From: an uncultured Alphaproteobacteria bacterium | GTDB lineage: Bacteria > Pseudomonadota > Alphaproteobacteria > HIMB59 > GCA-002718135 | Length of the DNA stretch: 46,611 nucleotides | Assembly: GCA_902635455.1 (NCBI GenBank) | Contig: CACPNW010000010.1 | Location: forward strand, 1-46,611 | Direction of reading: 5' to 3' | In this document: positions 3,686 through 21,540 of the stretch, in pieces | Layout: each line of letters opens with the position of its first letter | Position numbering within the stretch: position 1 is the first letter of the stretch | Notes under the pieces: model-generated | What the model saw: only the letters and a program-made list of their open reading frames with translations | Databases searched by the model: none | Told to the model about the DNA's origin: nothing | Position numbers and translations under genes: made by a program

Positions 3686-4585
3686 ATGAGTGAAAAAAAT
3701 ATAAATTTAATTAGAAATTATTTAAATAATTTTAGTATTGAGACTACTCCTAATGTTTACAATAAATATAATGGATTTTCGGATTTACTTGATAAAAGTC
3801 ATTTAGTTTACATAACTTATTTGCCTGATGAAAATAGTCAAAATATAATAACCGTTGCTAAGAAATTAAAACTAGAGGGCTATGAAGTAGTTCCGCATTT
3901 GCCAGCCAGAACAATTAAAAATAATTCTGAATTAGAAAAATATATAGCAAACTTATCAGAAGTAAGTGGTTGCAATAAAATATTGATAATTGGTGGTGGA
4001 GGAAATCAAAAAGGTGATATTTCTAGCAGTATTGATGTTTTAAAAACAGATTTATTATCAAAATACAACTTTATAGAAGTTGGTGTAGCTGGTCATCCAG
4101 AAGGTAGTCCTGACATAAATGATGAAGAAATTGAAAAAGCAATTATAGAAAAAAATAAAATTGCTCTTAAAGTTGATTATAAGATGTATTTAGCTACTCA
4201 ATTTTTCTTTGAGGCAACTTCTTTAATTGAATGGGAAATCAATTTGAAAAATATTGGTAATAAACTAGATATACATGCTGGGATACCTGGCCCAGCCTCT
4301 CTTAAAACTTTAATATCTTACGCAAAATCTTGCGGGATAGGAAATTCTATAAGATTTTTATCTAAACAAGCTTTTAATATTACTAAACTTGCCTCTCCAA
4401 AAACGCCTGATAAATTAATTTATGATTTAGCTGAATACAAAATTAATAATAATGAAACTAATTTAAAAAAGTTACATTTTTATCCATTTGGAGGAATTAA
4501 AAAAACTACTGATTGGCTTAATAAATTAAAAAAATCCAATTTTCTCTATAATTTAAACAATGAATTTGAGATACTAGATGAATAA
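3686..4585 (+). CDS. Methylenetetrahydrofolate reductase family protein
   Basis: A 299-residue TIM-barrel protein resembling MetF/MTHFR: VVPHLPARTIKN (substrate loop), IGGGGNQKGD, VGVAGHPEGSPD and DYKMYLATQFFFEA (the QFFF strand) occur in the expected order, then a HAGIPGP segment. MTHFR interconverts 5,10-methylene- and 5-methyl-THF with FAD. Proteins of this type often accompany dimethylglycine/sarcosine oxidation genes in marine Alphaproteobacteria, and here it leads the fhs-sarcosine oxidase run. It may make methyl-THF for methionine synthesis from demethylation-derived carbon, or work in the oxidative direction; the sequence does not decide. It differs enough from classical MetF that I leave the symbol blank. 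Confidence 0.78.
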   Translation: MSEKNINLIRNYLNNFSIETTPNVYNKYNGFSDLLDKSHLVYITYLPDENSQNIITVAKKLKLEGYEVVPHLPARTIKNNSELEKYIANLSEVSGCNKILIIGGGGNQKGDISSSIDVLKTDLLSKYNFIEVGVAGHPEGSPDINDEEIEKAIIEKNKIALKVDYKMYLATQFFFEATSLIEWEINLKNIGNKLDIHAGIPGPASLKTLISYAKSCGIGNSIRFLSKQAFNITKLASPKTPDKLIYDLAEYKINNNETNLKKLHFYPFGGIKKTTDWLNKLKKSNFLYNLNNEFEILDE

Positions 4586-4681: not shown

Positions 4682-6343
4682 ATGTCAGACATTGAAATAG
4701 CACGAAAAGCTCAAAAGAAAAATATAATTGATATTGCAGCTAAATTAGATTTAAAAGAAAATGATTTACGACCTTATGGTCATCATATTGCAAAAATTGA
4801 TATGAGCACCATAAATAAACTTCCTGAAAAACAATCGAAACTTATTTTAGTTACAGCTATAAGCCCTACTCCTGCTGGTGAGGGCAAAACTACAACTTCA
4901 GTTGGTCTTCATGATGGACTTTGTAAAATTGGGAAAAAAAGCATTGTATGTCTAAGAGAACCAAGCCTGGGTCCGAGCTTTGGTATGAAAGGTGGAGCTG
5001 CTGGAGGTGGCTATGCTCAAGTAGTACCTATGGAACATATAAATTTGCATTTTACAGGTGATTTTCATGCAATAACATCTGCAAATAATCTCCTTGCATC
5101 ATTAATTGATAATCATATTTATTGGGGCAATAAGTTAGGAATTGACTCAAGAAGAGTTGTTTGGAAAAGATGCTTAGACCTTAATGATAGAGCATTAAGA
5201 GAAATAACTGCTAACTTAGGAGGAGTCTCAAATGGATATGCAAGAACAGATGGTTTCAATATTACAGTAGCCTCTGAAGTAATGGCAATTTTTTGCCTTG
5301 CTACTGATCTTAAAGATTTAGAAAGACGACTTGGAAATATAACAATTGCTTATACTAGAGACAAAAAACCAATTCTTGCTAAAGATTTAAAAGCAGAAGG
5401 ACCAATGACTGTTTTGTTAAAACAAGCTTTTTTGCCAAATTTAGTTCAAACACTTGAAAATAATCCAGCAATTATTCATGGTGGACCGTTTGCAAATATT
5501 GCCCATGGTTGTAATAGTGTAGTAGCAACTAAAACAAGTTTGAAAATTGCTGATTATGTTGTCACTGAAGCAGGTTTTGGTGCTGATCTTGGGGCCGAAA
5601 AATTTTTTAATATAAAATGTCGCAAATCAAATTTAAAACCAGATGGAGTTGTTCTTGTTGCAACAATAAGAGCTCTTAAAATGCATGGGGGTGTAGAAAA
5701 AAATAATTTAGGATCTGAGAATGTAGGTGCTGTAAGAAAAGGTTTTCCAAATCTAGCACGTCATGTAAAAAATATAAAAAAATTTGGATTACCGGTTATT
5801 GTTGCGATTAATCATTTTGATGCCGATACTGATAATGAGATTAAAGCACTTGATGAAGAGTGCAAAAAAATAAGTGTAGATGCTGTTTCTTGCAAGCATT
5901 GGTCTAAAGGAAGTGATGGTACTGTTGAACTAGCTCAAAAAGTAGTAGATTTAGTAAATGAAGAAAATACTTTTAATTTTTTATATGAAGAAAAAATATC
6001 CTTATTAGAAAAAATCAAGATTATTGCTAAAGAAATCTATTCAGCTGATGATGTGTTGGCTGATAAAAAAATCAGAGATCAATTAAAACAATTTGAAGAA
6101 AGTGGTTATGGAAACTTTCCAATATGTATTGCAAAAACACAATATAGTTTTTCTACAGATCCATCTTTAAAAGCTGCTCCTAGTGGACATAGTATTCCAA
6201 TAAGAGAAGTGAGGCTTTCTAGTGGTGCTGAATTTATTGTTGTAATTTGTGGAGAAATAATGACCATGCCAGGACTGCCAAGTGTACCTGCGGCAAATTC
6301 CATTCACTTAAATGATGATGGACAAATTGAAGGTCTTTTCTAA
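4682..6343 (+). CDS. fhs: Formate-tetrahydrofolate ligase
   Basis: A 553-residue cytoplasmic enzyme (family about 557). It shows the P-loop [14 protein letters not shown] near residues 62-75, the [18 protein letters not shown] segment, the [15 protein letters not shown] motif and the C-terminal [15 protein letters not shown]. It interconverts formate + THF + ATP and 10-formyl-THF + ADP. Placed before the sarcosine oxidase genes, it probably runs toward formate and ATP, drawing on methylene-THF made by demethylation. That needs FolD, which is not in this window. The 96-base gap before it holds no recognisable motif. The next gene begins 32 bases downstream. Confidence 0.97.
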
Positions 6344-6375: not shown

Positions 6376-7638
6376 ATGCATAAAAAACCAAAAAAATATT
6401 CAGTTTTTTCACTAATAAAAAATTCTTTAACATACCATGAAAATTGGCAACCAGCATGGAGATCGCCTGAACCTAAAAAAGAGTATGATGCTATTATAGT
6501 TGGTGGAGGAGGACATGGTTTAACAACAGCATATTATTTAGCTAAAAATCATGGAATCACAAATATAGCTATTATTGAAAAAGGATGGATTGGTGGAGGA
6601 AATACTGGAAGAAATACTACTATAATTAGGTCTAATTATCTATGGGATCAAAGTGCAGCATTATATGACCATGCTTTAAAACTTTGGGAAGGGATGTCTC
6701 AAGAGTTAAATTATAACGTGATGTTTTCTCAAAGAGGTGTAATGAATGTTGCTCACACTCTTCATGATGTAAGAGAATTAAAGCGTAGATGGCATGCTAA
6801 TCGCTTAAACAACATTGATTGTGAATGGCTTAATACTCATCAAGTCAAAAAATTTTGTCCAATCATTAACACTTCTCCAAATATAAGATATCCAGTTTTA
6901 GGTGCAACTCTTCAAAGAAGAGCGGGAACAGCTAGACATGATGCTGTTGCATGGGGCTATGCTAGAGGAGCAGATGCCATGGGGGTTGATATTATTCAAA
7001 ATTGTGAAGTAACAGATATAAAAATATCTAATGGTAATGTTACTGGCATTGAAACAACAAAGGGTTCTATAAATACAAAAAAATTAGGTATTGTAACTGC
7101 AGGTCATTCAAGCGTTATGGCAAAAATGGCAGGGATGAGATTGCCCTTAGAAAGCAGGCCTTTACAAGCACTAGTTTCAGAACCAGTTAAACCAATAATT
7201 GACACTGTTGTTATGTCAAATACAATACACGCTTATGTATCTCAATCTGATAAAGGTGAATTAGTTATCGGTGCAGGTACAGATGGATATACATCGTATA
7301 CACAAAGAGGTGGTTTCAATATAGTAGAAGATACAATAGCTGCAGTTGTTGAATTATTTCCACTTTTTTCAAGAATGAAAATGCTTAGACACTGGGGAGG
7401 TATTGTTGACATTTGCCCTGATGCAAGCCCAATAGTAAGTAAAACTCATATAAATGGATTATATTTTAATTGTGGTTGGGGCACTGGTGGCTTTAAGGCA
7501 ACACCAGGCTCAGGTTGGGTTTTTGCACATACAATTGCTAATGATGAGCCTCATATTATTAATGCACCTTTTACAATTAATCGATTTTCAAGTGGAGAGT
7601 TAGTTGATGAACATGGTGCCGCTGCAGTTGCTCACTAA
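6376..7638 (+). CDS. soxB: Sarcosine oxidase subunit beta
   Basis: A 420-residue FAD-dependent subunit. The dinucleotide motif [19 protein letters not shown] starts near residue 38. [18 protein letters not shown] carries H188, equivalent to the histidine that covalently holds FMN in heterotetrameric sarcosine oxidase. Near the C-terminus, [18 protein letters not shown] is the conserved flavin-contact loop. The beta subunit oxidises sarcosine to glycine and delivers the methyl group as 5,10-methylene-THF. It heads a tight B-D-A-G operon in the standard order (6 bases to delta). This soxB is unrelated to the sulfur-oxidation SoxB at 39 kb. Confidence 0.96.
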
Positions 7639-7999: not shown

Positions 8000-10960
8000 A
8001 TGACAAAAAAAATTTCATTTACTTTTGATGGAAAAAAATATTTCGGTAATGAAAATAATACTCTTGCAGAAGCTTTAATAGATAATGGTGTATTTTTAAT
8101 AGGTAGAAGTTTTAAATATCATCGACCAAGAGGCATAATAAGTGCCGGTAGCGAAGAGCCCAATGCAATTGTCCAATTAGAATCAGGAAATGTTACAGAA
8201 CCAAATGTGAGGGCTACTGAAGTTTTTCTTTATGAGGGCTTAAGCGCAAGATCACAGAATAATTGGCCTAGTGTAAACTTTGACCTTGGCTCAATAAATG
8301 ATTTGCTTTCACCTTTTTTTCCTGCTGGTTTTTATTATAAAACTTTTATGTGGCCTCCTAAATTTTGGGAAAAATACGAATATTTTATTAGAAGAGCTGC
8401 AGGATTAGGAAAATCTCCTAATGAAGATGATCCAGATAAGTATGAACATTTTCACTATCATTGTGACGTATTAGTTATTGGAAGCGGCATAAGCGGTTTA
8501 TATGCAGCAGAATTAGCAGCAAAAGCAAATTTGAAGGTTTTACTTGTAGAACAATATAACTCTCTTGGTGGTGAAATTAATAGCTATGCTTCCCAAAACC
8601 TTCAAAACAACAAATCGGGCAAAAAAGAAAATTATGAAACCAAACTATTTAATGAAATTAATTTAAAGTTAGAAAAGTTTGAAAATGTTAAAATCATTAA
8701 GCATACAAGTGTTTTTGCTTATATGCATAATAATTATTTGCTTGCATGTCAAAAAATTAATAGCAAAGATATTAGACAAATAATTTGGAAAATCAGAGCA
8801 CAAAAAGTAGTTCTCGCGACAGGTTCAATAGAAAGACCTTTAATTTTTCATAACAATGATAGACCCGGAATTATGCTAGCAAATAGTGCTAGAAAATATG
8901 CAAATCGTAATTTGAATTTAGGAAAAAATATAATTGTTTTTACAAATAATGACTATGCTTATCAAGCAGCTATTGATTTTAAACTTTTAAATACTGCCAC
9001 TAAAGTACTAGTTGTTGATATTCGAAATAGTTCAAAAGGAGACCTTGTAGAACAAGCAAGAGGTCTTGGAATTAATATTTTGTTTAATCATGTTATTAGC
9101 AACACCTCAGGAAGAAAAAAAATTAATTCAGTTTCTATTCACAAAATTAATGAGAATACAAATAGTATTATAGATAGATATGGAAAGGTTAGTTGTGATC
9201 TCTTATGTGTATCTGGAGGCTGGTCACCCACTGTTCACTTGTTCACACAATCAAGAGGTAAATTAATTTATAGAGAGTCTGATGCAACTTTTATACCTCA
9301 TAAATCATTTCAAAATGAGATTAGCATCGGAGCTTGTAATGGTACGTTTGAATTAGATAAAATCTTAGAAGAAACATACTTAAAGATGAGCAAATTATTA
9401 TCTAGCTTTAATAAAAAGATTCAAAAATCAGATTATAATAAAATTGAAAAAACTTTTTATGATAAAATGAAACATCTTTGGATAATACCCTCAAATATTA
9501 ATTTTAATAAAACTAAAATGTTTGTAGACTATCAGAATGATGTCACTGCAAAAGATATAAAATTAGCACTCAAAGAGGGATATAAATCGATAGAACATGT
9601 AAAGCGTTATACCACTACTGGTATGGCTACAGATCAGGGAAAAACTAGTAATATTAATGCTCTTGGTATAATTTCTGAATTATCAAAAATCCCAATTCAT
9701 GATTTGGGCACTACTACATTCAGATTACCTTATACTCCTGTTTCATTTGGTGCTTTAGCAGGTAGGCACGTCAAAGAATTTTTTGATGTCGAAAGAACAA
9801 CGCCAATGCATAATTGGCATTTGGATAATGGTGCTAAATTCGAAGATGTTGGTCAATGGAAAAGAGCTTGGTACTATCCTCAAAATGGTGAAAATATGTT
9901 TGAAGCTGTTAACAGAGAAGTTAAAGCAACTAGAGATGGCATTGGAATATTGGATGCTTCAACTTTAGGCAAAATTGATATTAAAGGCCAGGATGCTAAT
10001 GAATTTCTGAATAGAGTTTATACAAACTCATGGTCAAAACTTAAGATTGGTAAATGTCGTTATGGAATTATGCTTGGGGATGATGGTATGGTAATTGATG
10101 ATGGTGTAACAAGTAGACTTGCAGAAAATCATTATATAATGACTACTACTACTGGTAATGCAGCAAGTGTGATGAGTAAATTAGAAGATTGGCTTCAAAC
10201 AGAATGGCCAGAATTAAAGGTTTATTTAACTTCAGTTACTGAACAGTTTGGCACAATAAGTATCAATGGACCATTTGCAAAAAATCTTATGATAAAACTC
10301 TTTCCAAATGTTGATTTTTCAAACGAAAATTTTTCTCATATGAGTTTTAAAAACGCTGATATAGATAATGTTAAATGTAGAGTAATGCGTATTAGTTTTA
10401 CTGGTGAGATGTGTTATGAAATTAATGTACCTTCAAGTTATGCCAAATCTTTGTGGGAAAAATGTATTGAGCTTGGAAATGAGTATAATATCACACCATA
10501 TGGCACTGAAGCTATGCATGTGTTACGTGCTGAAAAAGGTTTCATAATAGTTGGTCAAGAAACTGATGGTTCTGTAACACCTATAGATTTAGATATGAGT
10601 TGGATTGTAAGCAAAAAAAAGTATGATTTTGTAGGTAAACGAGCTCTTTCTAGAAAGGATACTGCAAGAAATGATCGTAAACAACTTGTTGGGATTTTAA
10701 CTAAAGACCCAAATTATGTATTAGAAGAAGGTGCTCAACTAGTAAATAAAATTTCTAAACTTCCAATGGAAATGATTGGACATGTAACCTCAAGTTATTA
10801 TTCTCCTAATTTAGGCAGATCAATAGCTTTGGCTTTAGTCAAAGAAGGCTTAAAGAAAAAAGATCAAACAGTTTATGCGCCTATGCCTGACAAAACTATT
10901 GAGGTTAAAATCAGCAATCCAGTATTCATTGATCCTGAAAATGAAAGGGTTGAAGGATGA
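8000..10960 (+). CDS. soxA: Sarcosine oxidase subunit alpha
   Basis: A 986-residue subunit of usual length. Residues about 1-90 form the ferredoxin-like N-terminal fold (GRSFKYHRPRGIISAGSEEP). Residues about 150-470 are the NAD-binding Rossmann region (DVLVIGSGISGLYAAELAA, ATGSIERPLIF). Residues about 600-986 form a GcvT-type tetrahydrofolate-binding domain (TPVSFGALAGRH, then GILDASTLGKIDIKGQDA, ending in SNPVFIDPENERVEG). The GcvT part binds folate and receives the methylene group from the beta active site. The last four bases (ATGA) overlap the gamma start. No frameshift or missing block is visible. Confidence 0.96.
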   Translation: MTKKISFTFDGKKYFGNENNTLAEALIDNGVFLIGRSFKYHRPRGIISAGSEEPNAIVQLESGNVTEPNVRATEVFLYEGLSARSQNNWPSVNFDLGSINDLLSPFFPAGFYYKTFMWPPKFWEKYEYFIRRAAGLGKSPNEDDPDKYEHFHYHCDVLVIGSGISGLYAAELAAKANLKVLLVEQYNSLGGEINSYASQNLQNNKSGKKENYETKLFNEINLKLEKFENVKIIKHTSVFAYMHNNYLLACQKINSKDIRQIIWKIRAQKVVLATGSIERPLIFHNNDRPGIMLANSARKYANRNLNLGKNIIVFTNNDYAYQAAIDFKLLNTATKVLVVDIRNSSKGDLVEQARGLGINILFNHVISNTSGRKKINSVSIHKINENTNSIIDRYGKVSCDLLCVSGGWSPTVHLFTQSRGKLIYRESDATFIPHKSFQNEISIGACNGTFELDKILEETYLKMSKLLSSFNKKIQKSDYNKIEKTFYDKMKHLWIIPSNINFNKTKMFVDYQNDVTAKDIKLALKEGYKSIEHVKRYTTTGMATDQGKTSNINALGIISELSKIPIHDLGTTTFRLPYTPVSFGALAGRHVKEFFDVERTTPMHNWHLDNGAKFEDVGQWKRAWYYPQNGENMFEAVNREVKATRDGIGILDASTLGKIDIKGQDANEFLNRVYTNSWSKLKIGKCRYGIMLGDDGMVIDDGVTSRLAENHYIMTTTTGNAASVMSKLEDWLQTEWPELKVYLTSVTEQFGTISINGPFAKNLMIKLFPNVDFSNENFSHMSFKNADIDNVKCRVMRISFTGEMCYEINVPSSYAKSLWEKCIELGNEYNITPYGTEAMHVLRAEKGFIIVGQETDGSVTPIDLDMSWIVSKKKYDFVGKRALSRKDTARNDRKQLVGILTKDPNYVLEEGAQLVNKISKLPMEMIGHVTSSYYSPNLGRSIALALVKEGLKKKDQTVYAPMPDKTIEVKISNPVFIDPENERVEG

Positions 10961-11532
10961 TTTTAAATCGTGAAAATACAATAGATTCTCTAAAAAATAA
11001 TAGAATTGAAGAAAGAAATGGAATTAAATTTCAAGAATTTCCTTTTGTTAATAAAATTAATATTAGAATTGACCCTGAAGACAAAAATCAAATGTCAATT
11101 TGTGGCAAAATTCTTGATACAATATTACCCCTTATACCAAATACATATGTAGAAAATCATAGCGTAAAGATTGTGTGGTTGTCACCAAATGAGTGGCTAG
11201 TAATAAATGGTAATGATGATTTGTTTAATAAATTGCAAAATAAAATTGGTGACAATGATGCAAGTGTTACAGATGTAACTGAAAATAGAACAGTTATCCG
11301 CATTTCAGGAAAAAAAATATTTAAATTGTTATCAAAATTTTTAGTTTTAGATTTAGAAAAAAGTCTAAAAGATCAATCATCTAGCGCTCAAACTTTGTTT
11401 GTAAAAGTTCCAGTACTTTTATTAAAGATTAGTAATAATCAAACTCCAGAAATTGACATATTTGCTAATAGATCTCATGCTAATTTTATTTATAATTTGC
11501 TAAAAGATGGCTCAAAAAATCTTGATTTTTAA
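10957..11532 (+). CDS. soxG: Sarcosine oxidase subunit gamma
   Basis: A 191-residue subunit, a small GcvT-like fold. The recognisable block is VKIVWLSPNEWLVINGN, the WLGPDEWL signature of gamma subunits, followed by DASVTDVTENRTVIRISG and a C-terminal FANRSHANFIYNLL. It is divergent and lysine/asparagine rich, as expected in an AT-rich genome. Its ATG overlaps the alpha stop (ATGA), preceded by a purine-rich GAAAGG...GAAGG ribosome-binding region. It completes the B-D-A-G complex. The following nuclease gene starts inside its 3' end. Confidence 0.9.
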   Translation: MILNRENTIDSLKNNRIEERNGIKFQEFPFVNKINIRIDPEDKNQMSICGKILDTILPLIPNTYVENHSVKIVWLSPNEWLVINGNDDLFNKLQNKIGDNDASVTDVTENRTVIRISGKKIFKLLSKFLVLDLEKSLKDQSSSAQTLFVKVPVLLLKISNNQTPEIDIFANRSHANFIYNLLKDGSKNLDF

Positions 11533-13523: not shown

Positions 13524-15158
13524 TTACATACCTGAATAATTAGGTCCACCGCTACCTTCAGGGACTACCCAATTAATATTTTGTGAGGGTTCTTTAATAT
13601 CACATGTCTTGCAATGTATGCAATTTTGAGCATTGATTACAAATTTTGGATTCAAAGAATCTGATCTATCAATTTCATAGACTCCAGCAGGACAATATCT
13701 TTGAGCGGGTTCATCAAATTTGCTAAGTGTGTAATTTATTGGTAAATTCTTATCTTTTAATTGTAAATGAACAGGCTGATCATCCTCGTGGTTTGTTCCT
13801 GTTAAATAGACTGAGCTGGTTTTATCAAATGTTATTTTACTATCATACTTCGGATAATCTATTTTTTTCACTTTACTAATAGGCAGTAAAGTTTCATGAT
13901 CTGCATGCTTATGTTTTAAGGTAAATGGCATATTGCCTCTAAAAATAATCTGATCAATACCTGTAAATAATATGGCGGCTATTAAACCCCAATTAAAACT
14001 AGGTTTTACATTCCTAGCTTGATAAAGTTCTTTATAAAGCCAAGAATTTTTAAATTTAATTTCAAAATTAGATAGTGGCTTATTACTTTGAATATACTCA
14101 CAAATTGTTTCAGCTGCAATAATACCACTTTTCATAGCTGTGTGACTTCCTTTTATTTTTGGCATATTTAATGTACCTGCATCACAACCTATTATTAAAG
14201 CTCCTGGCATGTGCATAGTTGGTAAACTTTGCAAACCTCCTTCTATAAGAGCTCTCGCACCATAAGAAATTCTCTTTCCATTTTTAATATATTTAATAAT
14301 ACTTGGATGAGTTTTAAATCGCTGAAATTCATCGTAAGGTGATAGATAAGGATTTTTATAATCTAAGCCAACTACATAACCAATATAAATTTTATTATTT
14401 TCAGCATGATAACAAAAACTTCCACCATATGTACTATTATCTAAAGGCCATCCGGTTGTGTGCAATACCAGACCTTTATCATGTTGTGAATCTTCAACCT
14501 CCCAAACTTCTTTAAAACCAATTCCATATTGTTGTGGTGATTTATCTTTATTTAAAGAATATTTTTTAATTATTTCTTTTCCTAAATGACCTCTACAACC
14601 TTCAGCAAACACAGTAACCTTACCTAGAATGTTAATTCCTGGCTCAAAACTTTCTTTTTTGTTCCCTTCTTTATTAATACCCATATCACCAGTTTGGACA
14701 CCTATTACTTTATCATCTTTAGAAAATAATATTTTTGAAGCAGGAAATCCTGGAAAAATCTCAACACCTAGAGCTTCGGCTTGTTCAGCAAGCCATTTAC
14801 AAAGATTTCCCAAGCTAATAATATAATTATTATGATTTTGCTGTACAGCAGGAAGTAGCCAAGTAGGCCAACTAAAAGAATTGTTTTTAGATAAAAATAA
14901 AAACTTCTCTTTCTCTACTTTTGTTTTTACTGGCGCATTTTTATCTTTCCAATCAGGAATTAGTTCATTTAAAGCTCTTGTTTCAAAAACATTACCACTT
15001 AATATATGAGATCCTACTTCAGATCCTTTTTCTAAAACACATACGTTTATATTTGAATCAAGTTGTTTAATTTTTATCGCCGCTGATAATCCTGCAGGGC
15101 CAGCTCCAACAATAACTACATCATATTCCATTTCCTCACGATGCACTTCATTTGACAT
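13524..15158 (-). CDS. Electron transfer flavoprotein-ubiquinone oxidoreductase
   Basis: A 544-residue enzyme of full family length. The FAD motif VVIVGAGPAGLSAAIKI begins near residue 14; the middle contains the GCDAGTLNMPKIKGSH block typical of ETF-QO; the C-terminus has CPAGVYE and CIHCKTCDIKEP, the four-cysteine cluster holding the 4Fe-4S centre. It is a monotopic inner-membrane enzyme moving electrons from reduced ETF to ubiquinone. It lies 22 bases after etfA in one operon with dimethylglycine/sarcosine dehydrogenase, making the route methylamine to ETF to quinone explicit. The standard name is etfD/fixC-like; I leave the symbol blank. Confidence 0.96.
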   Translation of the reverse strand: MSNEVHREEMEYDVVIVGAGPAGLSAAIKIKQLDSNINVCVLEKGSEVGSHILSGNVFETRALNELIPDWKDKNAPVKTKVEKEKFLFLSKNNSFSWPTWLLPAVQQNHNNYIISLGNLCKWLAEQAEALGVEIFPGFPASKILFSKDDKVIGVQTGDMGINKEGNKKESFEPGINILGKVTVFAEGCRGHLGKEIIKKYSLNKDKSPQQYGIGFKEVWEVEDSQHDKGLVLHTTGWPLDNSTYGGSFCYHAENNKIYIGYVVGLDYKNPYLSPYDEFQRFKTHPSIIKYIKNGKRISYGARALIEGGLQSLPTMHMPGALIIGCDAGTLNMPKIKGSHTAMKSGIIAAETICEYIQSNKPLSNFEIKFKNSWLYKELYQARNVKPSFNWGLIAAILFTGIDQIIFRGNMPFTLKHKHADHETLLPISKVKKIDYPKYDSKITFDKTSSVYLTGTNHEDDQPVHLQLKDKNLPINYTLSKFDEPAQRYCPAGVYEIDRSDSLNPKFVINAQNCIHCKTCDIKEPSQNINWVVPEGSGGPNYSGM

Positions 15159-15180
15159 AATAGTATATTAATTAATTATA

Positions 15181-16134
15181 TTATTTTTGAATAGTATTTA
15201 ATTTATCAAGTTCTTTAGAAAATTCTGGTAAAGCTTCAAATAAATCAGCTTTTAAACCATAATCAGCCACATTAAATATAGGTGCCTCATCATCTTTGTT
15301 AATTGCCACTATTATTTTGCTTTCTTTCATACCAGCTAAATGCTGAATAGCTCCTGAAATACCTACAGCTATATATAAATCAGGAACAACCACTTTTCCT
15401 GTTTGACCTACTTGATAATCATTACTAACATATCCTGCATCAACAGCTGCTCTTGATGCTCCTACGGCTGCGTTTAATTTATCAGCAATTTCATTTAGCA
15501 ATTTAAAATTATCAGCACTTTGCAAACCTCTACCTCCAGATATAACTACTCTAGCAGTACCTAATTCAGGCCTATCTGAACTAGATTCTTCTCGACCTAT
15601 AAATTCTGGAGCTGTATTAATTTTTTCAGCTGTTATTTTTTCTACATTTCCTGAACCACCATCTTTTGCTGCAGGATCAAATGATGTTGGTCTAATTGTA
15701 ATTATTTTTATTTTATCTCGTGATTTGACTGTTGCAATTGCATTACCTGCATAAATAGGTCTAACAAAAGTTTCTTTATCTATAATTTTTATAACATCAC
15801 TAACTTGCGAAACATCTAATTTAACAGCGACTCTAGGAAAAATATTTTTACCAAAGGTCGATGCAGGTCCTAAAATATGTGAATAATTTTGGGAAAGCGA
15901 TGTTATTACTGGTTCATAAAGTTCAGCAATTGGATTTTCATATTCGGGCATATCTAGAAGAAGAGCCTTATTAACTTTATCAATATTTGAAATTTTATTA
16001 GCCAAATCATCACAATTAGAACCAATTACCAAAACATCAATGTTTGAATCAATCTGAGTAGCTGCAGATATAGAATTTAATGTTGAAGATTTAATTTCTT
16101 TATTGTTATGCTCAGCTAAAACTAAAATACTCAT
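15181..16134 (-). CDS. etfA: Electron transfer flavoprotein alpha subunit
   Basis: A 317-residue subunit. The C-terminal FAD domain is intact: [51 protein letters not shown] and [11 protein letters not shown] are the canonical EtfA motifs. With EtfB it forms the soluble FAD/AMP heterodimer that collects electrons from flavin dehydrogenases. The first four bases overlap the etfB stop (ATGA), showing translational coupling. In this operon the dehydrogenase is the dimethylglycine/sarcosine type, not an acyl-CoA dehydrogenase. Confidence 0.97.
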
Positions 16135-16880
16135 ATTACCTTTGCCTCATTTTTCAACTTATTAACTAATTCAGCTACATCTGAAACCATAACACCTTTT
16201 TGCCTAACAGGTGGCTCCTCAACTTTAATTTGTTCAATACGTGGTTCAATATCAATGTTTAAATCTCCTACTTCTATAATTTCAATTGGTTTTTTTTTAG
16301 CTTTCATAATATTTGGCAATGAGGCATACCTTGGTTCATTTAATCTTAAATCACATGAAGCAACAAAAGGTTTGCTAAGTTTAATTGTTTCTAAGCCTTC
16401 ATCTATCTCTCTTGTAACTATTGCTTCATTGTCTTTTAATTCAATTTTAGAAGCAAAGGTAGCTTGAGGCCAGTTTAAAATTGCTGATACCATTTGTGCA
16501 GTTTGATTAGAGTCGTCATCAATTGCTTGTTTGCCAAGTAGTATAATTTCAGGTTTTTCTTTTTCAGCAACTTTAGAAATAATTTTTGAAACAGCTAAAG
16601 GCTCGACTTCCTTATCAGTTTTAACTAATATTCCTTTATCTGCTCCCATAGCAAGGGCTGTTCTGATTGTTTCTTGAGATTTTTCATCTCCAATTGAAAT
16701 TATTATAACTTCATTTGCATTTCCCGCTTCTTTTATGCGAAGAGCTTCCTCTACAGCATTTTCATCAGGAGGATTCATTGACATTTTGACGTTTTCTTTT
16801 TCAACACCTGTGCCGTCAGCTTTAACCCTTACTTGAACATTGTAATCAATGACTCTTTTAACTGCTACTATTATTTTCAT
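16131..16880 (-). CDS. etfB: Electron transfer flavoprotein beta subunit
   Basis: A 249-residue subunit beginning [19 protein letters not shown], with the EtfB motifs [44 protein letters not shown] and [15 protein letters not shown]. It binds AMP and, in the known family, contacts the donor dehydrogenase through its recognition loop (the [11 protein letters not shown] region). Its start codon shares its first base with the stop of the upstream dehydrogenase (TAATG overlap), so the three genes are probably made in step. Confidence 0.97.
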
Positions 16881-19312
16881 TAAGCTCTTAATAATTTATT
16901 TTCTGGATCGTATGGACTTTCTTCTATTATTGTTGCATCATGCAACTTGCCCAGTATATCAATTTTTAATTTTTGTCCAACATTTGCTAACTCTGGCTTA
17001 ACCATTGCAAGAGCAAGTGATTTACCTATTCTGAATCCATAATCTCCACCAGTAGCTCTACCAACTACTTTATCATTTTCATAGATTGGATTATTTCCTA
17101 AAACATCAGCATCTGTGACATCATGTACTTCTAATGTAACTAATTTATTTGAAAAACCTTTCTCCCTCCATCTATTTAAAGCATCTAGTCCAATAAATTT
17201 TCCTTTATTTGGATGAATAAATCTGTCTAAACCACTTTCATAAGGTGAATATTCAATAGAAAGCTCAGTTCCAATTAATTTATATGATTTTTCAACCCTT
17301 AGACTGTTCATTGCTCTTATGCCATATGGCTTTAAGCCCAAATCTACACCTGCTTCCATTAATGTATCAAAAATATGGTTTTGGCATTCTATCGGATGAT
17401 GAAGCTCCCAACCCAATTCACCAACAAAATTTACTCTTAAAGCATCAACAGAGGCGTATCCTATATCGACTTTTTTTGAACTCAACCATTTGAAATTTTC
17501 ATTCGTAAAATCATCTTTAGAAACTTTACTCATTAAGTCCCTTGCTTTAGGTCCTGAAACGACAAGTACACCAATACTATTGGTTAAGTTTTCATACTGA
17601 ACAGATCCATCTGTAGGCATCCATTTATGAATCCAGTCGTGGTCTAATCTTTGAAAAGCACCTGCTGAAACCAAATAAAAACTTTCTTCTGTCTCTCGCA
17701 TAATTGTAAACTCTGAATGCACACCACCATTTTTATTAAGTGCATGACATAAATTAATTCTTCCTATTGATTTTGGTAATTTATTAGCAACTAAATTATC
17801 TAAAAAACTTTCTGCTTTTGGACCTTTAATTCTGCATTTTGCAAAGGCTGTCATGTCAAGGAGTCCAACATTCTCTTTAACGTTTTTACATTCCTTTTCT
17901 ATGGCTTTAAACCATTTTGATCTTCTAAAAGACCAATCATCTTTTTGCTCCATACCATCTGTTGCAAAAAAATTTGGTCTTTCCCATCCAAATTTTTGAC
18001 CAAATACGGCTCCTAAATTTTTCATTCTATCATAGCAAGGTGCTGTTCTTAAAGGTCTTGCTGCCTCCCTTTCTTCATCTGGAAAATGTATAGTAAAAAC
18101 ATTCCTATAAGCTTCCTCATTTTTTTCTATAAGATAGGATTTTGAGCAATACTCCCCATATCTTCTTGGTTCAACTCCAAGCATATCAATAGTTGGCTCC
18201 CCATCAATTATCCATTCTGCTAATTGCCAACCAGCACCTCCTGCAGCAGTTATTCCAAAACTATGTCCTTCATTAATCCAAAAATTTTTTTTACCCCATG
18301 CTGGACCAACAATTGGATTTCCATCTGGCGTATAACAAATTGCTCCATTGTAAACTTTTTTTACCCCTACTTCTCCAAAAGCTGGAACTCGATGAATAGC
18401 TCCTTCAATATGCGGTGTTAGTCTGTCTAGATCTTCTTGAAATAGTTCGTATTCAGAATTTTCTGATGGGCCATCAACATAACAACACGGGGCACCTTTT
18501 TCATAAGGGCCTAAGATTAAACCACCAGCTTCTTCCCTCATATACCATTGAGTATCACTATCTCTTAGAACACCCATTTCTGGCAATCCATCTTTTTTTC
18601 TTTTCACAATTTCTGGGTGTGGTTCAGTTACAATGTATTGATGTTCTACTGGTATTACAGGAATATCGAGTCCTGCCATTTTTCCTGTTTGTCTTGCAAA
18701 ATTCCCAGAACAACTAACAACATGTTCGCACTCAATATTTCCTTTATCTGTTTCTACAATCCAGCTAGTTGTTTTCTCTTTAATTCCAACAACTGTTGTG
18801 TTTCTGTATATTTCTGCTCCATTATTTCTTGCGCCTATAGCAAGTGCTTGCGTTAAATCAGCTGGTTGAATGTATCCATCTTCTGGATGTTGAATAGCTC
18901 CAATTAAACCTTCGGTATTGCAAAGAGGCCAAATTTCTTTTACTTCATCAGGTTTTAAAAAATTAACTTTTACTCCTATTGTTTTGGCAACTCCTGCATA
19001 TTGATAATATTCATCCATTCTTTCTTTAGTGGTTGCTAATCTTATATTCGATACAACACTAAAACCTACATTTTGTCCTGTCTCTTCTTCTAGAGTTTTA
19101 TAAAGATTAACCGCATATTTATGAAGTTGACCAACAGAATAACTCATATTAAACAAAGGCAATAAACCTGCTGCATGCCAAGTTGATCCTGAGGTTAACT
19201 CTTTTCTTTCAACTAATACTACATCATCCCAACCCTTTTTAGCTAAATGATATAAAGTGCTTACGCCAACGGCCCCGCCACCTATTACAACTACCTTAGT
19301 TTTACTTTTCAT
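16880..19312 (-). CDS. Dimethylglycine/sarcosine dehydrogenase (FAD-dependent, GcvT-fused)
   Basis: An 810-residue two-part enzyme. Residues about 1-420 form a DAO-type FAD domain: [20 protein letters not shown], then [12 protein letters not shown], where H46 matches the covalent flavin histidine of mitochondrial dimethylglycine and sarcosine dehydrogenases. Residues about 430-810 form a GcvT-like folate domain ([46 protein letters not shown]-type motif; [13 protein letters not shown] end). It would remove a methyl from dimethylglycine or sarcosine, pass electrons to ETF and methylene to THF. The adjoining etfBA and ETF-QO genes support that. As the window separately encodes sarcosine oxidase, dimethylglycine is the likelier substrate here; this is inference. 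Confidence 0.88.
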
Positions 19313-19368: not shown

Positions 19369-19989
19369 ATGCGCTATTCTATTATTAATTTTTCTGTGTT
19401 TATTTTTGCAACTTTTATTAATTTTAATGTTTTTGCAGATATGACTTTAAATGATTTATTTTTTGATAACTCAAAGCCTTTTCATTTGAAATTGCTAGAA
19501 GCAATTCCTGAAAAAGGCAAACTTCAAATAGGTCCTGATAATGCTGAAAACACAATTATCGAATTTATGGATTATTTTTGCGGATATTGCAAAAAAATAC
19601 ACCCAGAGTTATTAGAGTTAGCTGAAACAAGAAATGATACTAGGGTTATATTTATTCAACATCCTATATTAAGTGAGAGTTCAAATATTATTGCCCAAAT
19701 GGTTATTGCAGCCAATTTACAGAATAAAGGGATTGAATTTCACAATGAATTATTTTCAATTGAAGGGACAATAAATAGAGATAAGCTTGTAAATGCAATG
19801 AAGAAAGTTCAAATCGATGAAAATCAAATGTCTTTAGATATAGAGAATGGTGATGTAAAAAATATAGTTTTGTTGTCTACTTTTTTAGCTAATGGTGCTG
19901 GAGCCAGAGGTACTCCGACAATATTTGTAAATGAAGAATTTTTTGGGGGCTACATCTCACTTGAACAAATGAAAAGTTTATTAAAATAA
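19369..19989 (+). CDS. DsbA-family periplasmic thiol-disulfide protein
   Basis: A 206-residue protein with a signal peptide (hydrophobic residues about 5-22, ending NVFAD) and a thioredoxin/DsbA domain: FMDYFCGYCKKIHPELLE gives the CGYC active site, and GARGTPTIFVNEEFFGGY gives the cis-Pro loop and the last strand. A helical insertion lies between. It acts in the periplasm as oxidase, isomerase or reductase on disulfides; the family resembles the 'DsbA family/2-hydroxychromene-like' proteins common in Alphaproteobacteria. It stands alone, transcribed away from the dehydrogenase operon, and ends at a hairpin shared with the next gene. Confidence 0.87.
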   Translation: MRYSIINFSVFIFATFINFNVFADMTLNDLFFDNSKPFHLKLLEAIPEKGKLQIGPDNAENTIIEFMDYFCGYCKKIHPELLELAETRNDTRVIFIQHPILSESSNIIAQMVIAANLQNKGIEFHNELFSIEGTINRDKLVNAMKKVQIDENQMSLDIENGDVKNIVLLSTFLANGAGARGTPTIFVNEEFFGGYISLEQMKSLLK

Positions 19990-19990
19990 A

Positions 19991-20012
19991 AATGCCCCTA
20001 CAAAGGGGCATT
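19991..20012 (-). terminator. Hairpin terminator between dsbA-like and dmdA-like genes
   Basis: A perfect 9-base-pair stem (AATGCCCCT / AGGGGCATT) around a short loop. On the minus strand the stem is followed by TTTTATTTTAA, a good intrinsic terminator 12 bases past the methyltransferase stop. On the plus strand it is followed by a weaker ATTAATTAAA tract, so it may also serve the DsbA-like gene. Confidence 0.85.
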
Positions 20013-20024
20013 AATTAAAAAAAT

Positions 20025-21380
20025 CTAAGCTTTTGAAGCTTCTCTAGTATTTGGATTATAAGATTCAGTAAATGGAATTTCTACCACTTCTGCATCTACA
20101 GGCACGCCAGGACTATCTGAGTATTCATCAGGAAGATGAACTTTAAATTTTTGGCCTACATTTCCAATAGGAAAGCCATTCTTGCTTAAAGTTCCATCGA
20201 AAGGAACATATCCCATAGCAATATTACGTTGTTGCTCAGGATGATACCAAGGTGATGTAACATAACCACAAGGATCTCCACCTTCAGCTGGCGAAATCAA
20301 CCAAAAATCAGGGGCATATTCCTCAATAGGTTTTCCACCTAAAGTTAAGCCAACTAACTGAAGCTTATATGGTTTTTGTCCTGCGGATATTTCACTTTTC
20401 ATTTTTTCCAAAGCTTCTTTACCAACATAATCAGTTTTCTTATTCCATTCCCCTACTCCAGATAAAGATACCTGATATCCAAGATTACATTGGAAAGGAT
20501 TATGTTGATTATCCATATCTTGACCCCATGACAAAATACCAGCTTGAATACGTCTATGATGAGCAGGCGCGATAACCATTAAATTATGTTTTTTGCCTGC
20601 ATCTAAAACTGCATTCCACATATCATCAGCATGAAGTGTTGCATCGTACAAATAGATTTCAAAACCAGCTGCTCCAGAGAAACCAGTTTGAGATATTACA
20701 CATTTGTGACCTCCAACTTTTACTTCTGCAAGACCATAAAAAGGCATTTTATCAACATCAACTTGATCTCCTACCAGATCTTTCATTAATGCATGAGCTT
20801 TTGGTCCTTGTATTTGTACTGGACAAACATCAATTTCATCAATTTCAACATTAAATCTTTTGTCATGATTTACACCTTGAAGGTATAAACCTATATCTGA
20901 ATCTGAAAGAGAAAACCAAAATTCATCCTCTGCAACTCTTAAAAGAATTGGATCATTTAATACTCCACCCATACTATTACATAAAATAACGTATCTTGCT
21001 GCTCTAACAGATCCATCTGCTTTCATAGATGGTATCCTTGTTGCATCACGCGTTATTACATAGTCAGTGAATGCTTCTGCATCAGGACCTTTGACTTGAA
21101 TTTGTCTTTCAACAGCAACATTCCACATCGTAACGTGATTTTTTATTGCTTCGTATTCCACCATTGCACCACCATCTTCAGGCTTAACATAGCCTCTTGG
21201 ATGGTATACTCGATTGTAAACAGTTGCTCTCCAACAACCTGCTTTCATTGACAAATGCCAATATGGAGATTTTCTTACTCTAGTTGAAATTAACATTTGA
21301 ACTGGAGTAGGACCACTCTGTCTTAGGTTGTATGGAACCTTTCTATCAGACTGGTCAACAGATGTTACATGTTTGATCAT
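20025..21380 (-). CDS. DmdA-like GcvT-family tetrahydrofolate methyltransferase
   Basis: A 451-residue GcvT-fold protein: the folate domain runs from about residue 60 (TVYNRVYHPRGY, VERQIQVKGPDA) and the C-terminal barrel from about 330. The segments GGVLNDPILLRVAEDEFWF, SLSDSDIGLYLQG, TGFSGAAGFEIYLYD and GILSWGQDMDNQHNPFQCNL parallel, from memory, the DMSP demethylase DmdA more than the glycine-cleavage T protein: ND replaces the DD of GcvT. It is longer than DmdA (about 370) by an N-terminal extension and a C-terminal tail. A strong AAGGAG precedes the ATG. It may demethylate DMSP, a related sulfonium/ammonium compound, or an unknown methyl donor. It stands alone, ending in its own terminator, next to the dehydrogenase/ETF operon. 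Confidence 0.72.
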   Translation of the reverse strand: MIKHVTSVDQSDRKVPYNLRQSGPTPVQMLISTRVRKSPYWHLSMKAGCWRATVYNRVYHPRGYVKPEDGGAMVEYEAIKNHVTMWNVAVERQIQVKGPDAEAFTDYVITRDATRIPSMKADGSVRAARYVILCNSMGGVLNDPILLRVAEDEFWFSLSDSDIGLYLQGVNHDKRFNVEIDEIDVCPVQIQGPKAHALMKDLVGDQVDVDKMPFYGLAEVKVGGHKCVISQTGFSGAAGFEIYLYDATLHADDMWNAVLDAGKKHNLMVIAPAHHRRIQAGILSWGQDMDNQHNPFQCNLGYQVSLSGVGEWNKKTDYVGKEALEKMKSEISAGQKPYKLQLVGLTLGGKPIEEYAPDFWLISPAEGGDPCGYVTSPWYHPEQQRNIAMGYVPFDGTLSKNGFPIGNVGQKFKVHLPDEYSDSPGVPVDAEVVEIPFTESYNPNTREASKA

Positions 21381-21540
21381 GTTTTGCTCCTTAAAAAAAT
21401 ATATATCTGCCTGCGGTATCTAAACTTCTTTTTTAACGCAATAATAAAATTCAAAAAACAATAAAATTCTGGGGAGCTTGTTCCTAAAAAAACCTAATTT
21501 AGGCCTTAGTTTTGCCAACATAAATATTTATCAAAGTCCC

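Follow-up and report, generated by a model that had tools for sequence, protein, structure and literature searches.

A DmdA-branch methyltransferase is a candidate folate-dependent glycine betaine demethylase in SAR11, HIMB59-like bacteria, other proteobacteria and haloarchaea

Which methyl donor is used by a DmdA-like protein whose genome encodes two other proteins that score as DmdA, the demethylase of dimethylsulfoniopropionate (DMSP)? The question is raised by an open reading frame (ORF; hereafter, the target) in a 46,611-nucleotide contig of an uncultured HIMB59 alphaproteobacterium (CACPNW010000010.1 of assembly GCA_902635455.1). This whole stretch, here called the window, corresponds to contig C10 in a genome of 1.14 Mb that is 68% complete. 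The initial annotation described an oversized DmdA-like methyltransferase and offered DMSP or another sulfonium, an ammonium or a methoxy compound as its donor. The target is best read as a folate-dependent demethylase of the DmdA branch with glycine betaine as its most likely substrate, a reading that rests on gene context and distribution and to which we give a probability of about 0.6. That the substrate is an ammonium compound of the glycine betaine kind is likely, and of the donors first offered the ammonium option is the one favoured by the evidence.

The target ORF is real, complete and conserved, and its features are as follows.

20025–21380, minus strand: target ORF, a GCV_T/DmdA-branch methyltransferase and proposed glycine betaine:tetrahydrofolate methyltransferase, 451 residues, ATG start
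21387–21392, minus strand: ribosome-binding site AAGGAG of the target, ending six bases 5' of the ATG
19991–20012, minus strand: terminator-like stem-loop with T tail, 3' of the target and on the same strand
21306–21380, minus strand: residues 1–25, the N-terminal extension, with the conserved VDQSDRxVPxNLRQSG at residues 8–23; predicted local distance difference test (pLDDT) mostly below 50
20946–20957, minus strand: residues 142–145, N-D-P-I, with D143 aligned to the second Asp of the DD of GcvT
20652–20681, minus strand: residues 234–243, with F234 at the position of the DMSP-contact Trp of DmdA and E241 and Y243 at folate contacts

Orthologues at E below 1e-200 were found in 54 of 61 genomes (its own and 60 relatives), the seven misses being 55–86% complete. 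A ribosome-binding site and terminator of its own had been proposed for the gene and both are present; support for the hairpin (20012–19991) is mainly positional, as a scan of the window returned three terminator-like sites against 1.2 in shuffled sequences, and two of the three are this hairpin. The length of 451 residues and the longer tail (by about 13 residues relative to DmdA) were likewise borne out, but not an N-terminal extension of some 40 residues: target residue 30 or 32 aligns with DmdA residue 7 or 9, a net extension of about 23, and internal insertions account for over half of the 82 extra residues. An insert of seven residues at about 120–126 is absent (6–7 gap columns) from 11 other aligned orthologues; three close relatives (L071–L073) have the same match length and so probably carry it too.

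The DmdA-like motifs noted initially, NDP (142–144), AEDEFWFSLSDSD and NPFQCNL, are present in the protein. Pfam assigns GCV_T at 127.2 bits (cut-off 25.6), with GCV_T_C marginal at 25.8 (cut-off 25.9). The nearest NCBIfam model is DmdA (NF009133) at 229.7 bits, which does not reach the equivalog cut-off of 410 that the two other proteins of the genome exceed at 524.7 and 517.6 bits. Both GcvT models are missed (141.6 of 300 and 117.6 of 235.85 bits), and the GcvT of the genome (L065) passes TIGR00528 at 276.4 bits. The model for trimethylamine N-oxide demethylase gives 134.1 of 1100 bits and is covered only at profile positions 404–722 of 763. The aryl O-demethylases LigM and DesA resemble the target in length and in demethylation linked to tetrahydrofolate (THF), and LigM also in fold (Z about 25), but their models return 47.5 of 580 and 43.1 of 800 bits; on these scores an identity suggested by length alone was rejected, and the methoxy donor is not supported. 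By sequence the closest solved structure is 3tfh, the DmdA of P. ubique. It is also the best match to an AlphaFold2 model of the target (mean pLDDT 80; below 50 at residues 1–12 and 15–33), with Z 42.5 and a root-mean-square deviation of 2.3 over 362 residues, and GcvT is tied with it at Z 41.8.

A first tree of 37 proteins covers DmdA and GcvT, as the initial annotation had envisaged, but not LigM or DesA. It places 20 orthologues in one clade (100/98) beside DmdA, separate from DmdA and from GcvT, and joins them with DmdA and DmdA-like proteins in a larger group (99/97) apart from GcvT and from the domains of dimethylglycine dehydrogenase (DMGDH) and SoxA. Long branches come together in this tree (GcvT, DMGDH domains and AMT rows), and the target clade persists in a second tree, to which 11 haloarchaeal proteins were added and from which L064_AMT400 and L182_DMGDHdom were omitted. 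There the clade holds with the haloarchaeal proteins included (100/97), and in both trees the target lies outside GcvT, an identity that was rejected on scores and trees together. The GCV_T domains of GcvT, DMGDH and sarcosine oxidase share with the target their domain family and fold, and GcvT also the second Asp of DD, but they lie on separate branches, the GcvT models score below cut-off and the target lacks DD itself. The haloarchaeal proteins are nested within the bacterial part of the clade, with L153 as their neighbour (91/95, not a starred branch); this placement points to transfer from bacteria to archaea without proving it. In the same tree the SAR11 genes (L105, L111, L134, L150) and the window's family form a clade (100/100) with family f2 (L055) outside it, although f2 belongs to the window's own order, a pattern that hints at gene transfer.

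Folate and catalytic positions are retained, D143, E241, Y243 and R277 being invariant in the alignment of 20 of 20 orthologues. The check on DMSP contacts, proposed initially for a structural model, was made by alignment and not in three dimensions. A Trp is key for DMSP in DmdA (W171 in the numbering of PMC7487153), and Phe occupies the position mapped to it in all 11 haloarchaeal members and in 19 of 20 bacterial ones, as F234 in the target. Three DmdA proteins above the cut-off have W, W and Y there; because one of them has Tyr, the test is not strict and is weaker than it first seemed. Clade-specific positions include W41, W50, Y59, H60, Q189, R276 and W360, some of which are altered in haloarchaea, and R276 is replaced by E, E and D in the three DmdA rows. 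The segment VDQSDRx(V/L)PxNLRQ(S/T)G is common to bacterial and haloarchaeal members with small variations, and L158, the most divergent member, keeps its second half only. A DmdA isozyme was rejected on the score far under cut-off, the separate clade, the change from Trp to Phe and the two DmdA proteins elsewhere in the genome. Judged by these sequence comparisons, the target is neither a DMSP demethylase nor GcvT, and the idea of a further DMSP demethylase clade is not supported; a folate-dependent DmdA-branch demethylase with another methyl donor agrees with the clade and with the folate and catalytic positions. Of the two results named initially as refuting, placement well within GcvT and loss of folate-binding residues, neither was obtained.

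The distribution of the target was taken from class, phylum and plasmid searches, since a contig scan says little about it: the best 80 of 595 confirmed places are all titled Alphaproteobacteria, Pelagibacteraceae, Pelagibacter or Pelagibacterales. In an even sample of 289 genomes of the class, 13, belonging to 10 families, have an orthologue at E ≤ 1e-80, with identities of 54–86% for the 12 other than the genome's own. The phylum sample has the target in 6 of 398 genomes, two of them already counted, and adds families f189 and f193, and the plasmid search returned 16 haloarchaeal records with the target at 50–57% identity.

In the class sample, FAO_M served as the marker for DMGDH-type genes (101 genomes) and was set beside MTTB (61 genomes) in a co-occurrence test devised post hoc, with the gene context already seen. 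All 13 genomes with the target have FAO_M, compared with 88 of the other 276 (Fisher p = 7e-7). Of the 101 genomes with FAO_M, 13 have the target and 88 lack it; MTTB occurs in 1 of the 13 and in 59 of the 88 (p = 6e-5). When each family is represented by a single target genome the figure is 1 of 10 (p = 7e-4), and when the three marine families with small genomes, f1, f2 and f99, are excluded it is 1 of 8 (p = 0.004); both were compared with the same 59 of 88, which was not collapsed. Families f30 and f65 each contain one genome with the target and another with MTTB. Near-exclusion of this kind would be expected were the target a replacement for MtgBCD, the cobalamin-dependent glycine betaine methyltransferase.

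The position beside genes for DMGDH and electron transfer flavoprotein (ETF) that had been noted for the target is confirmed in the window, where the following neighbours are found.

16880–19312, minus strand: DMGDH-type flavoprotein (DAO, FAO_M, GCV_T, GCV_T_C by Pfam), 810 residues, proposed next step
16131–16880, minus strand: ETF beta subunit, name read from sequence
15181–16134, minus strand: ETF alpha subunit, name read from sequence
13524–15158, minus strand: ETF:ubiquinone oxidoreductase, name read from sequence
19369–19989, plus strand: thiol-disulfide-like gene, between the DMGDH-type gene and the target
3686–4585, plus strand: divergent MetF-like protein, proposed 5-methyl-THF oxidation; Pfam MTHFR 34.0 (cut-off 24), NCBIfam 35.8 of 293.7
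4682–6343, plus strand: formate–THF ligase (fhs), by profile match
6376–7638, plus strand: FAD-dependent oxidoreductase (DAO), read as sarcosine oxidase beta; 66% to the gene beside SoxA in L157
8000–10960, plus strand: sarcosine oxidase alpha (SO_alpha_A3, GCV_T, GCV_T_C by Pfam)
10957–11532, plus strand: sarcosine oxidase gamma-like, 67.3 bits, below the NCBIfam cut-off of 144

The ETF ORFs together span 13524–16880, and the sarcosine oxidase (sox), fhs and metF-like genes lie about 8–16 kb from the target. A DMGDH-type gene is found within 10 kb in 34 of the 35 loci of the window's own group. Elsewhere in the genome (contig C7, L063:5415–7543) and in L185:3648–5854, a PF02574 homocysteine S-methyltransferase-like gene is directly followed by a GCV_T protein of 395–407 residues that passes no curated NCBIfam cut-off; the pair was seen in two genomes of the genus.

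A MetF-like gene stands immediately upstream of the target in 44 of 45 Pelagibacteraceae loci. Neighbours there were counted as similarity clusters, with single members tested against families and several loci ending at contig ends; within 10 kb a DMGDH-type gene was counted in 29 of the 45 and OpuAC- and OpuAB-like transporter genes in 28. The transporters beside the target in L105 are a ProX-like protein (39.4 of 215 bits) and a choline-type permease (271.4 of 363). MetF-like genes also adjoin the target in four f2 loci and in f17, f189 and f193, the order in f17 being sox genes, divergent, then target-metF-fhs-DMGDH. Across 12 proteobacterial target families, a gene of DMGDH type or for sarcosine oxidase lies within 10 kb in eight, and f189 has metF only. 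The divergent MetF-like proteins (window:3686–4585; L111:9253–9978; L055:8837–9715) may form a subfamily specialised in methyl-THF oxidation. In the Pelagibacteraceae metagenome-assembled genome FRAM18_bin075 (L134:1663–6831), a 378-residue DmdA-like protein (380.2 of 410 bits) is encoded directly downstream of the target; the same 15.6 kb hold fhs, metF, DMGDH-type and sox-like genes, and beside fhs is a 545-residue ORF that reads as an acyl-CoA ligase.

Family f193 lies outside the class, is probably gammaproteobacterial and was covered by the loci of genomes G405 and G501, that of G467 being left out. G501 carries together the target, metF, fhs (845.1 bits, cut-off 652), gbdR (500.8, cut-off 480), an L-serine ammonia-lyase gene (681.9, cut-off 345) and a DMGDH-like gene. 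G405 has the lyase, fhs and DMGDH-like genes as in G501, with an AraC-type regulator in addition and a metF reading frame that shows a 45-residue match only. In Pseudomonas, GbdR is described as an activator of gbcA, gbcB and dgcAB, with glycine betaine and dimethylglycine as its inducers (PMC12093977). No Ring_hydroxyl_A protein was found in G467 or G501, which by that test therefore have no GbcA, and some were found in G405 and G698. MTTB was found in none of these four genomes, and PF02574 proteins in all four, one per genome in a MetH-sized ORF.

For haloarchaea the context comes from 11 of the 16 records (H7, H8, H10, H13 and H14 were left out). Nine have an annotated methylenetetrahydrofolate reductase within 12 kb of the target, eight have FAD-dependent oxidoreductases of about 850 residues, seven ilvA and four glyA, and BCCT transporters are found in three clusters. 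A Haladaptatus plasmid carries formate dehydrogenase, fhs, folP, the target, glyA, metF, two flavoproteins, ilvA and a BCCT transporter, a set of genes that looks complete; its MetF is above the Pfam cut-off (48.8 of 24), and both flavoproteins, the only ones tested, are of DMGDH type (DAO, FAO_M, GCV_T, GCV_T_C). Dimethylglycine oxidases have been described near BCCT transporters in four haloarchaea in a paper whose relevant passages name no first-step enzyme (Anderson 2011, PMC3102087). According to the same passages, H. walsbyi, which is among the four, grew no better with betaine, and H. utahensis was unable to grow on it.

We infer a route in which glycine betaine would bind in the GcvT-fold pocket and N5 of THF would take one methyl in a direct, redox-neutral step, as in DmdA with DMSP, to give dimethylglycine and 5-methyl-THF. 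The MetF-like enzyme would then oxidise 5-methyl-THF to methylene-THF, while DMGDH with ETF, and sarcosine oxidase, would transfer the two remaining methyls to THF. Formate–THF ligase and the one-carbon pathway would oxidise the THF-bound methyls, and glycine would pass through serine to pyruvate. With the target, one protein would do the work of the B12-dependent MtgBCD system and of the O2-dependent GbcAB. We lean slightly towards the view that an enzyme of the DmdA branch, in need of neither cobalamin nor oxygen, moves a quaternary-ammonium methyl directly to THF and replaces MtgBCD in SAR11, HIMB59/AEGEAN-169-like bacteria, other proteobacteria and haloarchaea. MtgBCD shares with the target the net reaction proposed here, glycine betaine + THF → dimethylglycine + methyl-THF, and has a MetF paralogue beside one component; it consists of separate cobalamin-dependent proteins, whereas the target is one protein with GCV_T domains only (Mausz 2025, PMC12478193). 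In that paper, 5-methyl-THF oxidation is suggested for MetF2 of R. pomeroyi, Pelagibacteraceae genomes are said to encode no MtgC homologue, and BHMT use by SAR11 is given as lacking experimental validation.

Several points weigh against this route, the first of which is chemical. Quaternary ammonium compounds give up a methyl less readily than sulfonium compounds, enzymes that take a methyl from them are known to use cobalamin or a zinc-bound thiolate, and we know of no precedent for attack by THF on such a compound without cobalt or zinc. Other candidates for the first step are also present. Within 10 kb of the target a BHMT-like gene was counted in 21 of the 45 Pelagibacteraceae loci (93.5 of 338 bits for the one protein tested) and a Rieske gene in 35 (for the one tested, L150, 124.8 of 670 bits for GbcA). 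Ring_hydroxyl_A occurs in 14 of 19 target genomes and in two of the four genomes G405, G467, G501 and G698. In H. marismortui, pNG700 has an annotated alpha subunit of a ring-hydroxylating oxygenase between two flavoproteins (L206:20028–21167), with none annotated at the corresponding place in H. hispanica. PF02574 proteins, the family to which we take Bmt of Phaeobacter inhibens to belong, are present in 17 of the 19 target genomes. Because betaine is demethylated by Bmt in vitro (PMC12366255), there may be routes besides the target.

The context and the statistics have exceptions of their own. Families f18, f30 and f121 (three of 12) show none of the sought neighbours within 7–10 kb on each side, nor do two of the 11 haloarchaeal records, those of lowest identity among the 16. 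Sox proximity alone is weak evidence, because one of the genome's own DmdA genes (contig C17, L061:1268–7135) likewise lies less than 2 kb from a 989-residue GCV_T ORF that reads as sarcosine oxidase alpha. Two MetF-like partners fall under the Pfam MTHFR cut-off of 24 (L111 at 23.7 and L055 at 19.6), and all three tested are far below the NCBIfam cut-offs. One genome, G306, has both the target and MTTB, the match to the latter lying at a contig end. MTTB is a wider family than MtgB and includes enzymes for other methylamines and betaines, and the sampled genomes are related and not independent, the exclusion statistics being without a DmdA control.

A lesser, still plausible possibility is that the donor is another methylated ammonium compound (proline betaine, or a betaine derived from carnitine or choline) and that DMGDH and sox genes are nearby through shared transporters and one-carbon enzymes. 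The context defines the type of chemistry better than the exact substrate, and the adjoining transporters (ProX-like, choline-type permease, BCCT) have no firm assignment. The series of DMGDH-type, sarcosine oxidase, glyA and serine deaminase genes, together with GbdR, nevertheless fits glycine betaine and narrows the ammonium donor to it as the likeliest, as does the near-exclusion of MTTB in DMGDH carriers, although MTTB covers other betaines too.

Demethylation of DMSP or of its product methylmercaptopropionate (MMPA), with THF taking the S-methyl and MetF oxidising it, is improbable. DmdA is the closest characterised relative of the target, with which it shares the sister-clade position, fold, NDP motif, folate Glu and Tyr and the Asp, and redox-neutral methyl transfer to THF is proposed for the target as well. 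A SAR11 gene, SAR11_1265, has been placed near dmdA and beside metF (Sun 2011, PMC3160333), and L134 has its DmdA-like protein directly downstream and the acyl-CoA-ligase-like ORF nearby. Unlike DmdA, however, the target has about 23 extra N-terminal residues with a motif of their own and Phe in place of Trp, the latter in 19 of 20 orthologues, though one protein above the DmdA cut-off has Tyr. Two proteins of the genome are already above that cut-off, the neighbours in most loci are instead DMGDH, sox, metF, gbdR, serine-degrading or BCCT genes, and the clade extends to haloarchaea. An accessory, GcvT-like helper of DMGDH or sarcosine oxidase that yields methylene-THF and not methyl-THF is very improbable: both partners share the GCV_T domain and the GcvT Asp is kept, but DMGDH and SoxA already have GCV_T domains of their own, the target has NDP as in DmdA and not DD, and the conserved MetF-like partner is expected only if methyl-THF is made.

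For the glycine betaine demethylase proposed here, no earlier proposal within the DmdA branch was found in the portions of the open-licence literature covered. The main text of a paper on AEGEAN-169 (PMC10308909) has no match for betaine, sarcosine or dimethylglycine, and the relevant part of a paper on Colwellia (PMC3691474) describes gbcAB and not the target gene. The probable orthologue in Ca. Pelagibacter ubique HTCC1062 is SAR11_1265, which like the target lies beside metF and is close to DmdA; it was described as a DmdA-related aminomethyltransferase of unknown substrate, with the second methyl of DMSP as a speculation (Sun 2011, PMC3160333). In stationary phase the mRNAs of SAR11_1264 and SAR11_1265 fall together (0.20/0.12 and 0.10/0.10) as their proteins increase 1.3–1.5 fold, and the printed percentages of sulfur residues are 2.1 and 4.4 (Smith 2016, PMC5069961). 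The corresponding percentages for three SAR11 pairs are 2.1/4.4 in L105 (an exact match), 2.1/4.2 in L137 and 2.9/4.2 in L111, which lends weak support to the identity. The expression pattern itself speaks neither for nor against glycine betaine.

Many small marine genomes are unable to make vitamin B12. If the proposed function is correct, glycine betaine use in these bacteria would require no B12, and its first methyl could also be oxidised for energy. Betaine use would be uncoupled from methionine supply, and SAR11 would not be bound to BHMT and methionine synthesis. The target would be a candidate first step for those haloarchaea that have dimethylglycine oxidases beside betaine transporters. 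SAR11_1265, possibly a core gene of SAR11 Ia (Sun 2011, PMC3160333), would become directly testable.

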